The translations under genes and the position numbers were made by a program. 39,713 nucleotides of DNA from Xanthomonas arboricola. GTDB taxonomy: Bacteria > Pseudomonadota > Gammaproteobacteria > Xanthomonadales > Xanthomonadaceae. A model generated the notes under the pieces. That model made no database searches, was not told the DNA's origin, and worked only from the letters and a program-made list of their open reading frames with translations. The stretch covers positions 145,649 through 185,361 of the forward strand of contig NZ_QREM01000008.1 of NCBI RefSeq assembly GCF_003353015.1. The letters run 5' to 3'. Of the stretch, positions 4,294 to 27,168 are shown piece by piece; the stretch's first letter is position 1, and each line of letters begins with the position of its first letter.

Positions 4294-4454
4294 GGGATTC
4301 GGGATTCGGGATTCGGGATTCGGGATTCGGGAATCGGGAATCGGGAATCGGGAATCGGGAATCGGGAATCGGGAATCGGGAATCGGGAATTGGGAATTGG
4401 GAATTGGGAATTGGGAATTGGGAGTTGGGAGTTGGGAGTTGGGAGTTGGGAGTT
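4294..4454. repeat. 23-unit heptanucleotide tandem array in four ordered blocks
   Basis: Exactly 23 contiguous 7-bp units (161 bp) without indels. They are 5 x GGGATTC (4294-4328), 8 x GGGAATC (4329-4384), 5 x GGGAATT (4385-4419) and 5 x GGGAGTT (4420-4454). Each block differs from the next by one base. Every unit has a GGG run at 7-bp spacing on the + strand. It starts six nt after a stop codon. The same heptamer core builds the intercistronic elements at 18.2, 18.9, 25.1 and 27.1 kb. A hypervariable copy number is likely. Confidence 0.97.
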
Positions 4455-4741
4455 GGGGCGGATGGTGCCGGCCGGCGCGTATGTCGGTTTGCTTTTCCGC
4501 GTCGTGATTTCCTGATCTTGACTGACTGCTTCGATAGGAACCGCGCGAAGCGTTGAGATGCACGCTGCATGTCTGGCGCAGCCCGCGCCACGCCGGGCGC
4601 CTGATCGATTCGCTGGATTCGCCTTGATGAAGCACTCACGCGATCAGCAAGCGGCGTCTGCGAGGCCTTGCCGCATCGGTGCACCGATGCGTGCCATTCC
4701 CATTCTCAGGATCTGCACACCGGCTTGGCCAGAGTTGCCGC
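4455..4741. other. Intergenic leader before the ligase-associated operon
   Basis: 287 bp between the heptamer array and the exonuclease start, with no convincing gene. It holds a possible weak promoter (TTGACT at about 4518, without a clear -10) and a perfect 18-bp palindrome at 4673-4690. An open frame could extend the exonuclease upstream to 4679, but this part lacks family similarity. Confidence 0.5.
4673..4690. promoter_or_regulatory. Perfect 18-bp palindrome, candidate operator of the ligase operon
   Basis: GCATCGGTGCACCGATGC is fully self-complementary and ends 51 bp before the exonuclease ATG at 4742. Its length and position fit a dimeric repressor site. It does not resemble a LexA box. 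The regulatory role is inferred. Confidence 0.45.
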
Positions 4742-18238: not shown

Positions 18239-18383
18239 CGGGGATTGGGGATTCGTCATCGGGGATTCGCAGAGCATAAACCCAATACCAAGGCAGGGAT
18301 TGGCCAGTCGCAGCGCAAGCATCCCAGGTCCGACGCATCGCTTCAGCTTTTACCAATCCCGAATGCCCAATCCCGACTCCCGG
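18239..18383 (-). repeat. Intercistronic heptamer-based hairpin element, CYTH/dsbA gap
   Basis: On the minus strand it starts 1-2 nt after the CYTH stop with a GGGA-rich arm (18383-18352: units GGGAGTC, GGGATTG, GGCATTC, GGGATTG). A variable apical part of about 80 nt follows, then the complementary arm with AATCCC repeats (18271-18239). It occupies the entire gap and stops 3 nt before the dsbA-family ATG. The arms should pair in the transcript. Confidence 0.8.
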
Positions 18384-18384
18384 A

Positions 18385-18882
18385 TCACACTGCCCCGCTC
18401 CAGGTCCTGAACGGGTGCGAGGCCAGCGCCAGGTTGTAGTAGCGCACGTCGTCGGTGACTTCCGCGCCGATCCACGCAGGCCTGGCGAAGGCCTGGTCGG
18501 CATGTTCCAGTTCGATCTCGGCCACCACCAGCCCGGCATTGTCGCCGAGGAATTCGTCCACTTCCCACACGTGGCCCTGGTACTGGACCAGATGCCGGCG
18601 CTTGTCGATCAAACCGCCGACGCACAGCGCCAGCAGCGCGCGCGCCTCGACCACCGGAATCGGATACTCGAACTCCTGCCGCGTGTGCCCCACCTCGCGC
18701 GATTTCAGATTGAGGAACGCGCTCTCGCCCTGGAGACGCACCCGCACCGAGGCGTTCTGCGCACCGCTGCGCAACGCCGCCTGGTCATTGATATAGCCCT
18801 GCGCCATCGGGATCACCGCATGCGCGGCAGCGCGCCAGCCATCGCCGGTCACCAGGAATTTGCGTTCGATTTCGATGGGCAT
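18385..18882 (-). CDS. CYTH-domain protein (class IV adenylate cyclase/inorganic triphosphatase-like)
   Basis: 165 aa. The ExExK signature EIERK sits at residues 4-8, and alternating charged strands line the triphosphate tunnel (VRVRLQGESAFLNLKSREV, EFEYPIP, EVDEFLGD, AEIELE). Bacterial single-domain CYTH proteins of this length are generally inorganic triphosphatases, so tripolyphosphate hydrolysis is likelier than cAMP synthesis. The ATG at 18882 lacks a Shine-Dalgarno and is preceded by the C-rich arm of a repeat element. It lies downstream of rlmD on the same strand. Confidence 0.9.
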   Translation of the reverse strand: MPIEIERKFLVTGDGWRAAAHAVIPMAQGYINDQAALRSGAQNASVRVRLQGESAFLNLKSREVGHTRQEFEYPIPVVEARALLALCVGGLIDKRRHLVQYQGHVWEVDEFLGDNAGLVVAEIELEHADQAFARPAWIGAEVTDDVRYYNLALASHPFRTWSGAV

Positions 18883-18889
18883 GGATTTT

Positions 18890-18988
18890 GGGGGATTGGA
18901 GATTCGGGATTGGGGATTGGCCACAGCAGCGAACTGGCGGGCGTCGGGAATCCGCTCCTGCGAATCCCCAATGCCCAATCCCCAATCA
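18890..18988 (-). repeat. Intercistronic heptamer-based hairpin element, rlmD/CYTH gap
   Basis: On the minus strand it starts at the rlmD stop codon itself (TGATTGGGGATTGGG). The arm 18988-18960 has the units GGGGATT, GGGCATT, GGGGATT. An apical segment of about 40 nt is followed by the complementary arm of AATCCCC and AATCTCC units ending at 18890, eight nt before the CYTH ATG. It fills the whole gap between the genes. Confidence 0.82.
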
Positions 18989-20320
18989 CCGCCGTTCAAA
19001 CACCGCAATGCTCTCCACATGCGCGGTATGCGGGAACATGTCCATCGCCCCGGCGGCCTTGAGCGTAAAACCCTGCTCGTTGACCAGGTAGCCGGCGTCG
19101 CGCGCCAGCGAGCCGGGGTGACAGCTCACATAGACGATGCGCTCGAATTTCTTCAGCGGCAACTGCTGCAGCACTTCCAGCGCACCCGAGCGCGGCGGGT
19201 CCAGCAGCAGCTTGTCGAAGCCCTGCCGCATCCACGCAGCATTGCGCTGGTCCTGGGTCAGGTCGGCTGCATGGAACTGCGCATTGGCCAGCCCATTGCG
19301 CTGCGCATTCTCGCGTGCGCGCGCCACCAGCCCGGCATCGCCCTCCACACCGACCACCTCGCGCACGCCGCGCGCCAGCGGCAGGGTGAAATTGCCCAGC
19401 CCGCAGAACAGGTCCAGCACGCGGTCCTCGGGCCCGGCGTCGAGCAGCGCCAGCGCGTGGGCGATCATCTTCTGGTTGAGCGAGGCGTTGACCTGGATGA
19501 AATCCAACGGCCGGAACGCCAGCTCCACATCCCACTGCGGCAGGCGGAACGACAGCGGCACCTGCTGCGGCCACAGCGCATGCACGCTATCCACGCCGCC
19601 CGGCTGCAGGAAGATCGCAAAACCCTGCGCCTGCGCGAACGCGGTCAGCGCCTGCAGGTCGCGTTCGCTGAGCGGCTGCATGTGGCGGATGGTCAAGGCC
19701 ACCGCCTCGTCGCCGGCAATGAATTCGATCTGCGGGATATCGCGCTTGCCGTCCAGGCCTTCGACCAGCGCCGCCAGCTGCGGGATCTTCTCGCCGATCT
19801 GCGGGATCACCGTATAACAGACCGACAGATCGGCCACGAAGCGCGGATCCAGCTCGCGAAACCCCACCAGGGTCTTGTCCTTCTTCTCGACGCGACGGAC
19901 CGAAAAGCGGCCCTTGCGCCGGTAGCCCCAGTTATCGCCGACCAGGGCCGGCAACACCGCCTGCGGGCTGACGTGGCCGATGCGCTCCAGGTTGTCCATC
20001 AACACGCGCTGCTTGGCCACGATCTGCTGCGACTCGTCCAGGTGCTGCAGCACGCAGCCGGCGCAGACGCCGAAATGCGGGCAGCGCGGGGTCACCCGCT
20101 GCGGCGATGCCTCCAGCACCTCGACCGTCCTGGCCTCGTCGAAATGCCGGCTGCGCGCGGTAGGTTCGGCGCGCACCAGCTCACCCGGCAAGGCGCCACT
20201 GATGAAGGTGACTTTGCCGCCCTCGCCGTCGCGGCGGGCCACGCCGCGCCCGTCGTGGCTGAGGTCGGTGATTGCGGTCTGGAACGGCGTACGGTCGAAG
20301 CGGTTTCGGGTTCTGGCCAC
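18986..20320 (-). CDS. rlmD: 23S rRNA (uracil-1939-C5)-methyltransferase RlmD
   Basis: 444 aa from the GTG at 20320. N-terminal TRAM domain (about 10-70), Fe-S cluster cysteines Cys80, Cys86, Cys89 (CPHFGVCAGC) plus a later Cys in DLSVCYTV, a SAM-binding LDLFCGLGNFTLPLA motif, DPPRSG, and the catalytic cysteine in VYVSCHPGSLARD. Makes m5U in 23S rRNA. No clear Shine-Dalgarno; an extended -10 element 33 bp upstream supports this start, since an upstream extension of the frame would lie before the predicted transcription start. Confidence 0.94.
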   Translation of the reverse strand: MARTRNRFDRTPFQTAITDLSHDGRGVARRDGEGGKVTFISGALPGELVRAEPTARSRHFDEARTVEVLEASPQRVTPRCPHFGVCAGCVLQHLDESQQIVAKQRVLMDNLERIGHVSPQAVLPALVGDNWGYRRKGRFSVRRVEKKDKTLVGFRELDPRFVADLSVCYTVIPQIGEKIPQLAALVEGLDGKRDIPQIEFIAGDEAVALTIRHMQPLSERDLQALTAFAQAQGFAIFLQPGGVDSVHALWPQQVPLSFRLPQWDVELAFRPLDFIQVNASLNQKMIAHALALLDAGPEDRVLDLFCGLGNFTLPLARGVREVVGVEGDAGLVARARENAQRNGLANAQFHAADLTQDQRNAAWMRQGFDKLLLDPPRSGALEVLQQLPLKKFERIVYVSCHPGSLARDAGYLVNEQGFTLKAAGAMDMFPHTAHVESIAVFERR

Positions 20321-20352
20321 GTGGCGACGAGCTGCGGGCAAAAAGGGTGCGT

Positions 20353-20361
20353 ATTGTCGCA
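20353..20361 (-). promoter_or_regulatory. Extended -10 element upstream of rlmD
   Basis: TGCGACAAT on the minus strand, an extended -10 (TGC then GACAAT), inside a 15-mer identical to that upstream of nagZ. The hexamer ends 33 bp before the rlmD GTG. No good -35 is present at 17 bp. Confidence 0.45.
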
Positions 20362-20477
20362 GATGCGATCGATCGCGGCCGCTTCGCGCCGTAGAACAAT
20401 TGTCGCGCCCCTCAAACACAGGCACACTGCCGCTGCACGCGGCTGCGAGGACGCGGCATCGCTGACAAGGAGGCAGC

Positions 20478-21200
20478 ATGAACATGGCGACACGCCACGA
20501 ACCCCGACCCCGACTCTTGCTGGTAGAGGACGACCCGATCAGCCGTGGCTTCCTGCAGGCGGTGCTGGACGGTCTTCCCGCCCATGTCGATTGCGCAGAC
20601 TCCCTGTCTTCGGCACTGGACCGCGCGCGCGATCGTCGCCACGACCTGTGGCTGATCGACGTCAATCTGCCCGATGGCACCGGCAGCGGCCTGTTGCGTG
20701 CCCTGCGCCTGCTGCACCCGGACGTGCCTGCGCTGGCGCACACCGCCGACACCCATCTGGCGATGCAACGCAGCCTGCAGTCCGATGGCTTCCTGGAAAT
20801 GCTGGTCAAGCCGCTGACCTCCGAGCGCCTGTTGCAGGCGGTGCGCCGCGGGCTGGCGCGCGGCCGCTACAGCGTGGCCCCGGTGGGTGTGGTCGACATC
20901 GCTGCCAGCGATTGGGACGAAGCGGCCGCGCTCAGCGCGCTCAACGGCCAGCAACACCATCTCAACGCGCTGCGCGAGTTGTTCCTGGCCGAGTTGCCGG
21001 GCACCCGCGATGCGGTAAATTCGGCCCTGAAGGTCAGTGACGATCAGGCGCTGCGCAGCCATCTGCATCGGCTGCAGGCCAGCTGCGGATTTGTCGGCGC
21101 CGCACGGCTTGCCGGCGCGGTGCGCCTGCTGCGCGGCGACCCGCATTCCAGCACGGCGCAGACGCAGTTCCACGCGGCCGTGGCTGCGCTGCTGCACTGA
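20478..21200 (+). CDS. Response regulator with C-terminal Hpt domain (REC-Hpt)
   Basis: 240 aa, with a strong Shine-Dalgarno (AAGGAGG) 6-7 nt before the ATG. The receiver domain (about 12-125) has the acidic pair Asp18/Asp19, phospho-acceptor Asp61, Thr89 and Lys111-Pro112. After a short linker, residues 150-238 form an Hpt-like helical bundle with the likely phosphorylated His197 in HRLQASCGF. The canonical HxLKGS is altered, with Gln-Ala replacing Lys-Gly. It has no DNA-binding or enzymatic output and no neighbouring kinase, so it is probably an intermediate or sink in a multistep phosphorelay with a hybrid kinase elsewhere. Confidence 0.87.
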   Translation: MNMATRHEPRPRLLLVEDDPISRGFLQAVLDGLPAHVDCADSLSSALDRARDRRHDLWLIDVNLPDGTGSGLLRALRLLHPDVPALAHTADTHLAMQRSLQSDGFLEMLVKPLTSERLLQAVRRGLARGRYSVAPVGVVDIAASDWDEAAALSALNGQQHHLNALRELFLAELPGTRDAVNSALKVSDDQALRSHLHRLQASCGFVGAARLAGAVRLLRGDPHSSTAQTQFHAAVAALLH

Positions 21201-21346
21201 AGGATTGCACCGCGGCCGCTGGACTCGACGCAGCGGCGGCGACCGGAATGGGCGGCATCGCGCACCACGCATGCACGGCGGGCCTGCATGCCGTCCGACG
21301 CATTTCGATCATTGCTCGCGCGACTGGTTGACCGGCCTTGCGGCCC

Positions 21347-22069
21347 TCAACGCCGCCGCGCCAGATCCTCGAGCATTTCCCAGGATTTCAGTCCGCGTCC
21401 GCTCAGATGATGCAGCAGCACGCCGCGCATGCTGCGACGCAGACCCGGCATGTCGTCGGCTGCGGGCATGACGTCCTGGCCCAAGGCCAGCAGCGCCGCG
21501 CCGGTCACGGTGTCGCGCCGATCCTGCGCCATCGCCTCGCTCAATACGCGCAAGGCGCCTTCCTGCGGATCGAGCCGGTAGCGCGCCGCCGGGTCGATCG
21601 CCTGACCGTCGCGGTCGTGCTGCAGATCGAACGCAACGCCCAGGCCATCGAGCACATCGCGCTCGAACTGGCGCAGCCCCCAGGCCAGCGGCAGGCCGGA
21701 TGCCAGGTGCGCACGCGCCTGCGCATAGCAATCGAACAACTCCGGCACCGGGTCGTTACGCGGCGCCAGGCGCAGCAACAATTCACTGATATAGAAACCG
21801 GCCAGCATCGATTCGCCCGCCAGGCGGGGCGCAGTATCCAGCGCCTCGGCCTGACGCAGCTGCGCCAGTTCGCCGCGCTGCACCGCGGTGAACTGGATCA
21901 ATTGCAGTGGCTGCAGCGCCCCCCGCAAGGCCTGCTTGCGTGGCCCGTGCACCCCGCGCGCCAACAGCCCGACCCGCCCATGCTGCTCGCTCAGCACTTC
22001 CACCAGCAGGCTGGTCTCGCGCCAGGCGCGCACATGCAGGACAAAGCCGCGCTCGTGTTCGATCAACAT
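21347..22069 (-). CDS. recO: DNA repair protein RecO
   Basis: 240 aa. N-terminal OB fold ([35 protein letters not shown]) followed by the helical RecO_C domain. RecO helps load RecA onto SSB-coated DNA in the RecFOR pathway. The start at 22069 begins like other RecO proteins. It is the last gene of the rnc-era-recO block but is separated from era by an unusual 245-bp gap. It converges with the REC-Hpt gene across 146 bp in which no clear terminator was found. Confidence 0.94.
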
Positions 22070-22298
22070 GCGCTGTCGTGCCGCAGGGGCCGAGATTGCA
22101 GGACAGACACTCCGATATCGGCAACGGCCGCGGTCAGCCTCTGCCGGCGGCGCCCCCGATCACAGCCGTTGCCGACAACCGCCGCAGCGGCCAGGCGCAA
22201 TCGGGACCATCGCGACATCGCTTGCATCGTAGCTCCACGCCAGTGACGGTCTGGGCGATCGCATCGACAGGCTGTCAGCACAGCGTCGGTGCCGCGCC

Positions 22299-22314
22299 GG
22301 CCCCGGCCGGGGCC
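22299..22314 (-). other. Perfect 16-bp GC palindrome right after the era stop
   Basis: GGCCCCGGCCGGGGCC immediately follows the era TGA. There is no T-run, so it is not a standard terminator. It might stabilise the era 3' end or pause polymerase ahead of the 245-bp era-recO gap. The rest of that gap has no convincing gene, apart from a low-complexity 72-codon frame overlapping recO. Confidence 0.5.
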
Positions 22315-23214
22315 TCACTCGTATCCGAACGCCTTCAACGCCGCTTCGTCATCCGACCAGCCTTCGCGCACGCGCACCCAGGTCTCCAGGAACACCTTGG
22401 CGCCGAACAGGCGCTCCATCTGCAGGCGCGCCTTGCCGCCGATGTCCTTCAGGCGGGTGCCGCCCTTGCCGATCACGATCGCCTTCTGGCCTTCGCGCTC
22501 GACCCAGATCACCGCGCCGATGCGCAGCAGCGCGCCGTCTTCGGCAAAGCGCTCGATCTCCACGGTGGTGGCGTACGGCAGTTCTTCGCCGAGCTGACGC
22601 ATCAACTGCTCGCGCACCAGCTCCCCGGCCAGGAAGCGCTGGCTGCGGTCGGTGATCTCGTCCTCGCCGAACATCGCGTCGGCTTCCGGCACCAGCTTGA
22701 GCAGGTCGCCGACCAGCGCCTCCAGGCCCTTGCGCTTGAGCGCCGACACCGGATGCACTGCAGCGAACGTGCGCCCCTCGCTGACCTGGGCCAGGAACGG
22801 GAACAGCGCGGTCTTGTCCTTGAGCCGGTCGACCTTGTTGACCACCAGCACCACCGGCACCCCGGCGTCGCTCAGGACCTTGAAGGCCAGGGTGTCTTCG
22901 TCGTCCCAACGGCCGGCTTCGATCACCAGCACCGCCGCGTCCACGCCCTCCAGCGAGCCGCGCGCGGCGCGGTTCATCACCCGGTTCATCGCGCGCTTCT
23001 GCTCGCGATGCAGTCCGGGCGTATCGACCAGCACCAGCTGCCCCGCGGGGAAGGTGGCAATGCCCAACAGCCGGTGACGCGTGGTCTGCGGCCGGTTGGA
23101 CACGATGCTGACCTTGGCACCGACCAGGGCATTGGTCAGGGTGGACTTGCCGACGTTGGGCCGGCCGATCACCGCAACGCTGCCGCTACGGTGGGGGGAA
23201 GAGGTTTCGCTCAC
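22315..23214 (-). CDS. era: GTPase Era
   Basis: 299 aa. P-loop GRPNVGKS (17-24), switch regions with DTPG, NKVD specificity motif, and a C-terminal KH domain ([16 protein letters not shown]). Era binds the 3' end of 16S rRNA and guides 30S maturation. The GTG start overlaps the rnc stop (GTGA), the usual coupling for these genes. Confidence 0.95.
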
Positions 23215-23894
23215 GTGTTGGAATCCAGTTGTGCGATGACGAGGGTGGCCGCCTGTTGCTCGGCGAGGCGACGCGAGCTGCCCTGGCCTTCGGCGCGGGC
23301 GACGGGCTGTTCCAGGATGCAGGCGACATGGAACTGCTTGGCATGTTCGTCGCCGCTTTCGCTGATCAGCGCGTAAGTGGGCAGCGGCAGCTGCCGCGCC
23401 TGCAGCCATTCCTGCAGCCGGGTCTTGGGGTCCTTTTCCGCCTTGCCCACCGGCAGCGCGGCCAGCGAGGGTTCGAACCACGGCAGCACCACCGCACGGC
23501 AGCGCTCGAAGCCGCAGTCCAGATAGATCGCCGCCACGATCGCCTCGACCGCGTCGGCCAGGATCGAATCGCGGCGATGGCCGCCGGATTTCAGCTCGCC
23601 CGGGCCCAGCGTCAGCCGCTCGCCCAGGTTAAGCGCGCGGCCGATCACCGCCAGCGCCCCTTCGCGCACGAGTTCGGCGCGCGCGCGGGTCAATGCGCCT
23701 TCATCGGCCTTGGGCCAGCGCTGGTACAGCGCCTCGGCGATCAGCAGGTTGACGATGCCGTCGCCAAGGAATTCCAGTCGTTCGTTGTGCGGTGTTCCGG
23801 CGCTGCGATGCCGCAGCGCCTGGGCGAGCAACCCCGGATCGGCGAACGCATGCCCGATCGGATCGCCACGCTGGAAGGTTCTATTCGCCACCAC
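23211..23894 (-). CDS. rnc: Ribonuclease III
   Basis: 227 aa, normal length. Catalytic signature [10 protein letters not shown] at 37-46, a second acidic cluster in [13 protein letters not shown], and a C-terminal dsRNA-binding domain ([11 protein letters not shown] to the end). The position usually held by Ser in the LGDS motif is Gly46 here. The start is the GTG at 23894, overlapping the DUF4845 gene by 14 nt; a GTG one codon on is equally possible. Processes rRNA and structured mRNA. Confidence 0.95.
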
Positions 23895-24258
23895 GTCCCG
23901 TCATGTCCTGTGACGTCTCGAACTTACCGACAATATCCAGGTTGCCGATCAATTCGCGGCGCACTTCATAATTGACCTTCATGCGCCAGCCACCGTCGGC
24001 GCGCTCGAACTTGACGTCTTCCTTCTTGACGTTTTCCGAATAGTTGATGTACAGCCGGCGAAAGAACAGATCCTGCAACTTGGACGGATCCATGTTGGCG
24101 CTATCGGGTTCCTTGGCCAGGCTCTTCATGGCCGTGCGCACGGAATAGTATTCCTGGTACATCGGAAACAGCTTCATCCCGATGTACAGGGCAAACCCCA
24201 CCACCGCCAGCACCACCACGAACGACGTCAACGTCATACCGCTTTGCTTGCGCTTCAT
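23881..24258 (-). CDS. DUF4845 small membrane protein
   Basis: 125 aa. A single N-terminal membrane helix (about 9-30, [27 protein letters not shown]) with a pilin-like look, then a soluble periplasmic domain ending in a Gly-rich tail. Conserved between lepB and rnc in many gamma- and beta-proteobacteria; the function is not established. It lies 28 bp after lepB and overlaps rnc, within the operon. Confidence 0.9.
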
Positions 24259-24286
24259 TGTGCTTCCCCGGCACGCCGTGCGTGCA

Positions 24287-25087
24287 TTACTGGATTCCGG
24301 TCCCGATCCGCGACGGATCGAAACTCCCCTTGCAGAACCATCCTTCGCAATTGAGCCAGATCAGGAACGCCTTGCCGCGCAGGTTGGCCTCCGGCAGGAA
24401 GTGCGTCTGGGTCCAGAATCGGCTGTCTTCGCTGTTGTCGCGATTATCCCCCATCACGAAATAGCTGTCCGCCGGCACGGTCCAGTCGCCCTGCCCGGCC
24501 GGCATGTTGCGGTCGACCCACTCCAGCACGGTGTGCGTGCGGCCCGGCAAGTCCTCGACCAGCAAGGTGGTGCCGGTCATCTCGGCGCCCTTGCCCTTGC
24601 CGATGTATTCGCCCTTGATCGTGTAACGCATGGGTTTTTCGTTGATGTACAGCGTATCGCCGTGGAAGCCGATCTTGTCGCCCGGCAGGCCCACCACGCG
24701 CTTGATCCAGTTCTGGTCGGGCGCATGCGGCGGCTTGAACACCACCACGTCGCCGCGCTTGGGCTCGCCGGTGGGGATGAACTTGGTATTGGTGATCGGC
24801 AGACGGAACCCGTAGGCGAACTTGTTGACCAGGATGAAATCGCCGATCAGCAGATTGGGCATCATCGAACTGGACGGAATCTTGTACGGCTCGGCAACGA
24901 AGCTGCGCAGGATCAACACCACCGCCAGCACCGGGAAAAAGGCGCGCGAGTAATCGATGATCGCCGGCTCGCTGTCCAGCAGACCGGCGCGTGCGGCGCG
25001 GCGCTTGGCCAGGAACAGCTTGTCCAGCAGCCAGATGAAGCCGGTGCCCAGCGTCAGCACAACCAGGACGATTTCAAACCATTTCAT
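24287..25087 (-). CDS. lepB: Signal peptidase I
   Basis: 266 aa. Two N-terminal membrane segments (about 4-24 and 47-64) place the catalytic domain in the periplasm. Catalytic Ser74 lies in PSSSMMPNLL and the general-base Lys129 in IKRVVGLPGD; GDNRDNSEDSR is the conserved box E. It removes signal peptides from exported preproteins. Good Shine-Dalgarno (GAAGGA, 7 nt). Separated from lepA by a hairpin repeat element that fills the gap. Confidence 0.95.
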   Translation of the reverse strand: MKWFEIVLVVLTLGTGFIWLLDKLFLAKRRAARAGLLDSEPAIIDYSRAFFPVLAVVLILRSFVAEPYKIPSSSMMPNLLIGDFILVNKFAYGFRLPITNTKFIPTGEPKRGDVVVFKPPHAPDQNWIKRVVGLPGDKIGFHGDTLYINEKPMRYTIKGEYIGKGKGAEMTGTTLLVEDLPGRTHTVLEWVDRNMPAGQGDWTVPADSYFVMGDNRDNSEDSRFWTQTHFLPEANLRGKAFLIWLNCEGWFCKGSFDPSRIGTGIQ

Positions 25088-25096
25088 TGATGTTCC

Positions 25097-25190
25097 TTCG
25101 GAACGGGATTCGGGATTGGAGATTGGGGATTCGCAAAAACAGTAGGGCTGGCGTCGTTGCCAATCCCCAATCACGAATCCCAAATCCCGG
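25097..25190 (-). repeat. Intercistronic heptamer-based hairpin element, lepA/lepB gap
   Basis: On the minus strand the arm starts directly after the lepA TAA (CCGGGATTTGGGATTCGTGATTGGGG, given in two parts: 25190-25175 and 25174-25162). An apical segment of about 30 nt carries GGCAACGACG and TTTTTGCGA. The complementary arm of AATCCCC, AATCTCC, AATCCCG and AATCCCG units ends at 25097, just before the lepB Shine-Dalgarno. The two arms should form a long hairpin in the lepA-lepB transcript. Confidence 0.85.
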
Positions 25191-26996
25191 TTACTTATCC
25201 ATCTGCAGGACAGCCAGGAAGGCTTCCTGCGGAATCTCCACGCGGCCGACCTGCTTCATGCGCTTCTTGCCTTCCTTCTGCTTTTCGAGCAGCTTTTTCT
25301 TGCGCGAAACGTCGCCACCATAGCACTTGGCCAACACGTTCTTGCGCATCGCCTTGACCGTGGAGCGCGAGATGATCTGCGAGCCCACGGCGGCCTGGAT
25401 CGCCACGTCGAACATCTGCCGCGGGATCAGGTCCTTCATCTTTTCGCACAGTTCGCGGCCGCGCCGGTCGGCGTAGCTGCGGTGCACGATGATCGACAGC
25501 GCATCGACCTTGTCGCCATTGATCAGCGTATCCACGCGCACGAACGGGCCGGCATCGAAGCGCAGGAAGTGGTAATCCAGCGAGGCGTAGCCGCGCGAGA
25601 CCGACTTGAGCTTGTCGAAGAAATCCAGCACCACTTCGGCCATCGGCAGCTCGTAGCTGATCTGCACCTGGCTGCCCAGGTAGTTGATGCCGATCTGGGT
25701 GCCGCGCTTTTCTTCGCACAAGGTGATGATGTTGCCGACGTAATCGGGCGGGGTGAGGATATTGGCGCGGATGATCGGCTCGCGGATCTCTTCGACGTTG
25801 TTCAGCGGCGGCAGCTTGGACGGGTTGTCCATCGGGACGATGCTGCCGTCGGTCTTGAGCACTTCGTAGACCACGGTCGGCGCGGTCGAGATCAGGTTGA
25901 GGTTGTATTCGCGCTCCAGCCGCTCCTGCACGATCTCCATGTGCAGCATGCCGAGGAAGCCGCAACGGAAGCCGAAGCCCATCGCTTCGGAGCTTTCCGG
26001 CTCGAAGCGCAGCGCCGCATCGTTCAGGCGCAGCTTGTCCAGCGCCTCGCGCAGATCCGGGTAGTCCTCGGCATCGACCGGAAACAGGCCGGCGAACACG
26101 CGCGGCTGCATTTCCTGGAAACCGGGCAATGCATGCGGCGCCGGGTCGGCCGCCAGGGTCAGGGTGTCGCCGACCGGCGCGCCGTGCACGTCCTTGATCG
26201 AGGCGTTGATCCAGCCCACTTCGCCCGCGCCCAGCGCGGCAAGCTCCTTGCGCTTGGGCGTGAACACGCCGACCTTGTCGACCAGATGGGTGCGGCCGGT
26301 GGACATCACCAGGATCTTGCTGCCCGGCTTGATCTCGCCCTGCATCACGCGCACCAGCGAGACCACGCCCAGGTAGTTGTCGAACCACGAGTCGATGATC
26401 AGCGCCTGCAGCTTGTCGGTATCGCGGGGGGTGGGCGGCGGAATCCGCTGCACGATCGCTTCCAGCACCAGGTCGATGTTCAGGCCGGTCTTGGCGCTGA
26501 CCGCCACCGCGTCCTCGGCATCGATGCCGATCACCGCCTCGATCTCGGCCTTGGCACGCTCGATGTCGGCGGTCGGCAGGTCGATCTTGTTGAGCACCGG
26601 CACCACTTCCAGGCCCTGCTCCACCGCGGTGTAGCAGTTGGCCACCGACTGCGCTTCCACGCCCTGGGCCGCATCCACCACCAGCAGCGCGCCTTCGCAC
26701 GCGGCCAGCGAGCGGCTGACCTCGTAGGAGAAGTCCACATGCCCGGGGGTGTCGATGAAGTTCAGGTGATAGACCTGCCCGTCCTTGGCCGTATACGGCA
26801 GGGACACCGACTGCGCCTTGATGGTGATGCCGCGTTCGCGCTCGATCGGGTTGGAGTCGAGCACCTGGGCCTCCATCTCGCGCGCCTGCAGGCCGCCGCA
26901 CAGCTGGATGATCCGGTCGGCCAGGGTGGATTTGCCGTGGTCGACGTGGGCGATGATGGAGAAGTTGCGGATGTTCCGCATTGAATCAGAGGACAT
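25191..26996 (-). CDS. lepA: Elongation factor 4 (LepA)
   Basis: 601 aa, full length. GTPase motifs [17 protein letters not shown] and NKIDLP, then domains II, III and V and the LepA-specific C-terminal domain ([41 protein letters not shown] region). A ribosome-associated translation factor. The ATG at 26996 is annotated; an ATG five codons downstream would also give the common N-terminus [16 protein letters not shown]. Neither has a clear Shine-Dalgarno. Confidence 0.95.
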
Positions 26997-27035
26997 TGAG
27001 GTGGGCGCCGGCGGTGCCGTCGTCAGGGTAACGCA

Positions 27036-27047
27036 GCATTATCGCAC
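27036..27047 (-). promoter_or_regulatory. Extended -10 promoter element of lepA
   Basis: GTGCGATAATGC on the minus strand: TGC followed by GATAAT (5/6). It lies about 42 bp before the lepA ATG and suggests that lepA can be transcribed separately from rpoE-mucD. A 6-bp hairpin, GGCCCC-TTT-GGGGCC (27052-27066), lies just upstream, where a -35 would be; no -35 is visible. Confidence 0.55.
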
Positions 27048-27066
27048 GGTCGGCCCCTTTGGGGCC

Positions 27067-27168
27067 GGGGATTGGGGAATCGGGATTCGGGAATCGCAAA
27101 AGCAGGGTGGACCGTCGCGTATCGCGGACCCGCTTCTGCCAATCCCGAATCCCGAATCCCGGCCGCGA
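27067..27168 (-). repeat. Intercistronic heptamer-based hairpin element, degP/lepA gap
   Basis: On the minus strand the arm begins a few nt after the degP stop (CGGCCGGGATTCGGGATT and a further CGGGATT; 27166-27140). The apical part has GGCAGAAGCGGG and GCTTTTGCG around an inner GTCCGCGATACGCGAC hairpin. The complementary arm GATTCCCG, AATCCCG, ATTCCCC, AATCCCC ends near 27067. Same architecture as the three other elements. Confidence 0.85.

Follow-up and report, generated by a model that had tools for sequence, protein, structure and literature searches.

Heptamer repeats of the GGGAATC/GGGANTN type were described in two Xanthomonas genomes by Rehm et al. (2015; PMC4692102). They occur preferentially downstream of stop codons, on the coding strand, and are rare between divergent genes. 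Convergent inverted pairs were counted as 70 and 75 in two Xanthomonas genomes, and the published screen called for at least one GGGAATC unit per array (PMC4692102). Most of the repeats are transcribed. They form quadruplexes in vitro, with four units being preferred, and transcript starts and ends are commoner at quadruplex-capable repeats than at controls (PMC4692102). In Escherichia coli, REP elements located less than 16 nt from a stop codon reduce translation and stall ribosomes (PMC12306157). The title of PMC3733652 names a GTAG or CGTC tag next to the palindrome as a feature of REP elements with a RAYT transposase. Correia elements are cut by RNase III, while ERIC elements can expose an RNase E site (PMC10969869).

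The window (the whole analysed stretch of DNA, 39,713 nucleotides from Xanthomonas arboricola) contains four hairpins that, judged by their sequence, represent the GGGANTN heptamer repeat of Xanthomonas in its paired, inverted arrangement. An earlier note on this DNA knew of no name for the family. It was already published (PMC4692102), and the main outline of the finding is a rediscovery of that repeat. The heptamer, the convergent inverted pairs, the post-stop site on the coding strand and the scarcity in divergent gaps are common to both. All four gaps carry two or more GGGANTN units (14 bp or more). The window hairpins differ from the set defined by the published screen in their GGGAATC content: this unit is present in the arms of the degP/lepA hairpin only, it is absent from lepA/lepB and CYTH/dsbA, and its sole copy in rlmD/CYTH lies in the loop. 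GGGAATC is present in orthologous lepA-lepB gaps of other species.

Four things go beyond the available text of Rehm et al. (2015), namely an octamer tail at the end of the arrays, placement at stop codons established with a covariance model, patchy amplification, also in genomes with no match to a Y1/RAYT transposase, and an apparent exchange between two forms of the hairpin. Neither the octamer tail nor the two-form exchange was found in the available portions of PMC4692102, and the words GCAA, GTAA, AAGC and octamer are absent from its main text. The word Xanthomonas is absent from the available portions of PMC2267715 and PMC1590033. A named RNA family was considered and rejected, as Rfam at the gathering score gave 0 matches in the window and six further loci. 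A repeat once seen as a simple tract with possible quadruplexes now appears as a composite: it has a defined end, often faces a second unit and is distributed patchily over a bacterial family.

By analogy, stop-near E. coli REPs and the Correia and ERIC hairpins are the nearest working models. Like E. coli REPs, the hairpins are palindromic repeats that lie about 15 nt or less behind a stop codon (PMC12306157), but they have another sequence and heptameric arms, and no link to Y1/RAYT was found for them. Like ERIC and the Correia/NEMIS MITEs, they are inverted repeats, lie between genes and would form hairpins when transcribed into mRNA (PMC10969869), but the window hairpins have no common body sequence between the arms. 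MITEs of this type are defined by terminal inverted repeats with a target-site duplication, and of these marks inverted arms are present here.

Paired heptamer arrays in the window

The genes rlmD, CYTH, dsbA, lepA, lepB and degP, which flank the gaps, were checked for domains, and their names come partly from the earlier note. The features are as follows.

25105..25188, minus strand: lepA/lepB hairpin in its GGGATT form, from orthologous gaps and RNA folding
25153..25160, minus strand: octamer tail that follows the G-rich units of the lepA/lepB hairpin, one mismatch to GYAAVRGC
25133..25140, minus strand: facing tail of the lepA/lepB hairpin; the predicted stem pairs both tails
27068..27160, minus strand: degP/lepA hairpin, with GGGATT units in the G-rich arm and a mixed C-rich arm
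18892..18989, minus strand: rlmD/CYTH hairpin, with an array that merges with the TGA stop codon of rlmD
18241..18381, minus strand: CYTH/dsbA inverted arrays that flank a long inner segment, with a weaker fold
4294..4455, plus strand: tandem heptamer array of the same family, unpaired

The earlier note claimed one architecture for four same-strand gaps, and this holds. Inverted GGGA(T/A)T(C/G) heptamer arrays form the arms in 4/4 gaps between co-oriented minus-strand genes, and in each the G-rich arm adjoins the upstream stop codon on the coding (minus) strand, with an onset 0-8 nt after the stop. The distance from the stop to the first GGGA is 2 nt for lepA, 3 nt for CYTH and 8 nt for degP, while the TGA of rlmD abuts the array directly. 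Two details of that description do not hold throughout. Closing of the loop by TTTTGCGA is exact in two of the four gaps (lepA/lepB and degP/lepA) but altered in CYTH/dsbA and absent from rlmD/CYTH. The C-rich arm comes within a few nucleotides of the next gene in three gaps, but the degP/lepA element stops about 70 nt before the lepA start.

The lepA/lepB hairpin is ordered as four G-rich units, tail, loop, tail complement and four C-rich units, and lepB starts 17 nt beyond its stem. When folding was compared with that of 200 dinucleotide shuffles, z was -7.9 for lepA/lepB, -5.4 for rlmD/CYTH and -5.7 for degP/lepA, with 0/200 shuffles as good in each case. The CYTH/dsbA arrays fold more weakly (z = -2.4, 3/200 shuffles as good) and are not one simple hairpin. 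The unpaired array at 4294..4455 begins 5 nt past a TAG stop and is made of blocks of GGGATTC, GGGAATC, GGGAATT and GGGAGTT. Such blocks of identical units look like the product of stepwise slippage.

Abundance, placement and spread of the repeat

The genome that was scanned (4.73 Mb, 24 contigs) bears out the suggestion of an amplified family. GGGANTNGGGANTN occurs 379+394 times (773) vs 8+8 (16) for the reversed control. A covariance model built from 12 hairpins (R1) gave at least 116 two-strand matches, which were merged by hand to at least 63 places; these are a lower bound, as R1 scored 150 of the 9853 first-look candidates in this genome. Fifty of the 63 places are tandem gaps, 9 are convergent, 1 is divergent and 3 lie inside a predicted gene. 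Divergent gaps are under-represented, with 1/60 placed hairpins vs 26/110 heptamer-free gaps of at least 60 nt in the same stretches (66 tandem, 18 convergent and 26 divergent; p = 5e-5). The proposed clustering at stop codons was recovered with the covariance model: 53/68 stops that adjoin R1 places lie at -20 to +16 nt from the outer edge, a further 4 at -32 and the remaining 11 at greater distances. The gene finder was home-made and extended some starts into elements, so that stops are the safer reference. In a tandem gap the hairpin occupies most of the space, which brings stop and start both close, and closeness to the stop is therefore partly a matter of space. Unpaired arrays make the stronger case for stop placement. 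By eye, 18/31 of them have the G-rich strand as coding strand and a stop within 16 nt, 0/31 adjoin a stop in the opposite orientation, and several of those that abut a stop have hundreds of nucleotides of gap free beyond. Two equal-scoring hairpins stand 99 nt apart at G000:C21:115630-115803, and the degP-lepA gap of X. cucurbitae (L023) is 314 nt long with 15 heptamer matches; both cases look as if entire hairpins had been duplicated in tandem.

An octamer tail closes many of the arrays. Behind the final heptamer of 50 runs (26 stretches of this genome), GYAAVRGC is exact in 21, has one mismatch in 6 and two or more in 23. With at most one mismatch and in a fixed register it is thus found in 27/50 runs, the same runs from which the motif was derived, vs about 0.5% of random 8-mers; in five other registers 0 or 1 of the 50 runs match. 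Heptamer-plus-tail matches number 101 vs 3 for the reversed control in this genome, and 107-134 vs 0-2 in 6/10 genomes of one genus (g7). The tail is not merely an extension of the stem, because many unpaired arrays also carry it. Facing units, each a heptamer array with its frequent tail, can pair into a stem of some 30 bp that encloses a variable loop. Four heptamer-rich genomes (G018, G021, G004 and G016) are nearly without the GYAAVRGC tail; among their arrays that were listed, some end in AAAGC- or AGAGC-like tails and others do not.

At least one heptamer pair is present in 173/197 genomes of the bacterial family, where one or two pairs may be due to chance, and 65/197 genomes have 50 or more. 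R1 matches are found in at least 67/119 genomes and at least 34/46 genera. The amplification is patchy, and members of one genus range from none or few to hundreds (g15, g24, g39). Hairpins in the lepA-lepB gap are seen in some Stenotrophomonas and Pseudoxanthomonas loci, and most other loci lack them. The earlier note proposed to look for a linked REP-type transposase. Y1_Tnp (PF01797) was found in 139/197 genomes and is weakly associated with repeat richness (55/65 rich genomes vs 84/132 others, p = 0.0026), but 10/65 repeat-rich genomes have no match to it. A Y1/RAYT transposase was thus rejected as a necessary mover. One genome (G195) has 21 Y1_Tnp matches, and each copy among the matches listed has one in-frame TAG. 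The letter at unit position 5 varies by genome among the matches listed (G004, G016 and G154, the last also at position 7), and among the arrays listed GGGAAT units predominate in G016 and GGGACT units in G004, a pattern that would fit homogenisation of the arrays across each genome.

Two hairpin forms at the lepA-lepB gap

An alignment of the lepA-lepB gap (A1) has 30 rows, namely the window, 28 Xanthomonas-labelled loci and [Pseudomonas] boreopolis. The gap holds two hairpin classes, GGGATT and GGGAAT, and both arms differ together. Four stacked pairs, one per heptamer, are U-A in 16-18 and A-U in 11-12 of the 30 rows, and they are broken in 1, 3, 1 and 1 rows. Where both arms are clearly of the A or the T class, they are concordant in 25/25 rows at lepA-lepB (31 rows in total), 17/17 at rlmD-cyth (28 rows) and 12/13 at degP-lepA (29 rows), the remaining rows being mixed, empty or of another letter. 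The compensatory arm changes between species that the earlier note had proposed to look for are thus present at three gaps. At degP-lepA, 11/29 rows pair a clear G-arm with a mixed C-arm, so some mismatch is tolerated. Covariation between the copies of one genome is seen at unit position 5 but not at position 7. The share of GGGAAT agrees between arms (r = 0.70, 0/10000 permutations) in the 59 scorable of 63 hairpins, which were found with R1, a paired-arm model that favours matched arms. At position 7 these 59 hairpins gave no between-arm agreement beyond chance. Arm pairing in 12 paralogous hairpins, all mainly GGGATT, was 81.9% vs 82.7% in shuffles, and element-specific pairing among these paralogues was rejected.

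Class is not structured by the gene phylogeny. A lepA+lepB tree (31 rows, of which 29 have a class; 11/28 inner branches well supported) requires 10 changes of class, at least 7 of which are forced by well supported branches, and this is about as many as for shuffled labels (mean 9.4). Class changes number 6 at degP-lepA and 9 at rlmD-cyth. Linkage was computed on 26/30 rows of A1 (12 vs 14 per class), omitting the diverged or outgroup rows L026, L027, L031 and L038. Linkage to the class is high inside the element, with r2 >0.9 at 15 columns, and exceeds 0.6 at three leader columns right before lepB, while for coding sites within 100 nt it is at most 0.16. Background linkage between common sites within 60 nt has a mean r2 of 0.44-0.50 in lepA and 0.14-0.21 in lepB; because it is low in lepB, the lepA side is the stronger evidence. 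At rlmD-cyth (21 rows) and degP-lepA (18 rows) the linkage between class and flanks has a mean r2 of at most 0.08 per bin, and single sites reach at most 0.41.

The lepA-lepB gap is 93% identical within A-A pairs, 88% within T-T pairs and 73.5% between opposite classes, and the flanks are 92-93% identical in all three sets. In comparison with X. euroxanthea (L009), the window has flanking genes that are 98.5% identical and a gap that is 72% identical. The loci L016 and L014 differ at 0/120 nt upstream and 0/60 downstream, with a gap identity of 72%. In 12 opposite-class pairs, which share members, differences in the 30 nt beside the element number 17/360 upstream and 7/360 downstream, and farther out 236/7200 and 174/4800; no clear excess divergence beside the lepA-lepB element was seen in these pairs. 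Nor did any empty site show a clean insertion or excision; what was seen is the substitution of one form for another at a given position. The correlation of gap with flank distance is 0.03 at lepA-lepB, 0.19 at degP-lepA, 0.14 at rlmD-cyth and 0.66 at cyth-dsbA. It was rejected as proof of special turnover, as seven control gaps span 0.10-0.56. Because the control gaps overlap these values, the claim of exchange rests on linkage and the tree. The rlmD-CYTH gap of two X. hortorum loci and Xanthomonas sp. Leaf131 (L014, L021, L022) measures about 0.8-0.9 kb and has no heptamers.

At lepA-lepB the two classes alternate between species, arms together, and independently of the flanking coding sequence. 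The same alternation is found at rlmD-cyth and degP-lepA on less data. Since the arms differ together, the tree requires 10 changes and coding linkage is absent, each exchange seems to take in an entire hairpin of about 100 bp as one unit. The simplest account would be that recombination between strains swaps the hairpin as one block. A more specific version is somewhat less likely than not: bounded cassettes of about 100 bp would be exchanged between Xanthomonas species, two forms would persist at one site and repeatedly replace each other, and the flanks would be left untouched within tens of nucleotides. The borders could come from a process driven by the hairpin itself, such as cleavage of the palindrome or hairpins in the heteroduplex that escape mismatch repair. 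Palindromes in heteroduplex DNA may evade mismatch repair while flanking mismatches get corrected. Alternatively, selection for matched arms could hold each form together while recombination shuffles its surroundings, and intermediates with mixed arms may be lost through their poorer pairing. The two forms amount to a natural experiment, with near-identical genes and different hairpins in close relatives, which makes the role and movement of post-stop palindromes directly testable.

Possible roles and rival explanations

The hairpins are most likely read through, because there is no T-run, the next start is near in 3/4 gaps and the repeats of Rehm et al. (2015) are mostly transcribed. By analogy with REP elements, they most likely act, if they act at all, on the mRNA near the stop. 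The hairpin would be copied into the read-through mRNA, where it would work like an E. coli REP at 15 nt or less past a stop, affecting terminating ribosomes as well as the decay of the mRNA that proceeds from the 3' side. The account that we put forward, with a confidence somewhat short of even, combines the two lines: paired GGGANTN repeats, with classes that would be spread by recombination as blocks and with a REP-like role in read-through mRNA near the stop.

A neutral or selfish repeat is a rather less probable but substantial alternative. Such a repeat would arise by slippage and a copying process and would survive behind stops since coding and promoter DNA rejects it, the hairpin having no role of its own. 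Patchy amplification within genera, the many lepA-lepB gaps of related genera that have no hairpin, the block structure of the array at 4294..4455, with its runs of identical units, and the avoidance of divergent gaps (1/60 vs 26/110) all fit this explanation. Against it, the arms remain matched, unpaired arrays hug the stop though hundreds of nucleotides are free beyond, and their strand is fixed (by eye, the G-rich strand is the coding one in 18/31 arrays that adjoin a stop vs 0/31 in reverse).

Three further explanations give the G-rich arm or the stem another function. A stem that joins the stop to the next start in tandem gaps and so favours reinitiation is unlikely. Stem edges have a median distance of about 5 nt from stops and are often about 9 nt from starts, and a Shine-Dalgarno match of at least 4 is found in 2/28 hairpins that lie at most 12 nt before a start (by eye) vs 22/61 ATG controls (p = 0.004). 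However, the 12-nt cut was picked after the list was seen, the search stretch overlaps the arm at this distance, and the starts come from the home-made gene finder, so that a few of these 28 starts are probably wrong. With starts within 25 nt there is no difference (11/41 hairpins vs 24/85 controls). In addition, lepB has a good Shine-Dalgarno match, 9/63 hairpins occupy convergent gaps, and unpaired arrays are numerous. It is slightly less probable still that, as Rehm et al. (2015) proposed for the repeat, the G-rich arm works through a G-quadruplex, in DNA or in RNA, with the hairpin in a secondary part. In favour of this, the repeat forms quadruplexes in vitro and prefers four units (PMC4692102), and 57/126 arms of the 63 hairpins have a G3+N1-7 motif, but 69/126 arms have none, and most rows of the lepA-lepB arm have one G-tract interrupted and the stem intact. 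An intrinsic transcription terminator between operon genes is highly improbable. The stems are stable and lie behind stops, and the excess of transcript ends and starts at quadruplex-capable repeats (PMC4692102) could be read in its favour. However, a G+C-rich stem with a T-run was found at none of the four gaps in a scan of loops of 3-8 nt, and the role is disfavoured by the sequence, which has no T-run past the stems and places the next gene a few nucleotides beyond the stem in 3/4 gaps (17 nt for lepB).

Whatever the hairpin does at lepA-lepB cannot be essential, since many relatives lack it there. Gaps without heptamers at this site fold with z below -2 in 7/37 cases vs 31/120 controls; as they fold like controls, a hairpin required at lepA-lepB in all genera was rejected. 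Three Pseudoxanthomonas loci (L056, L057 and L066) carry another large palindrome in this gap, of the TTCTCCC...GGGAGAAGG type, with z from -8 to -14.
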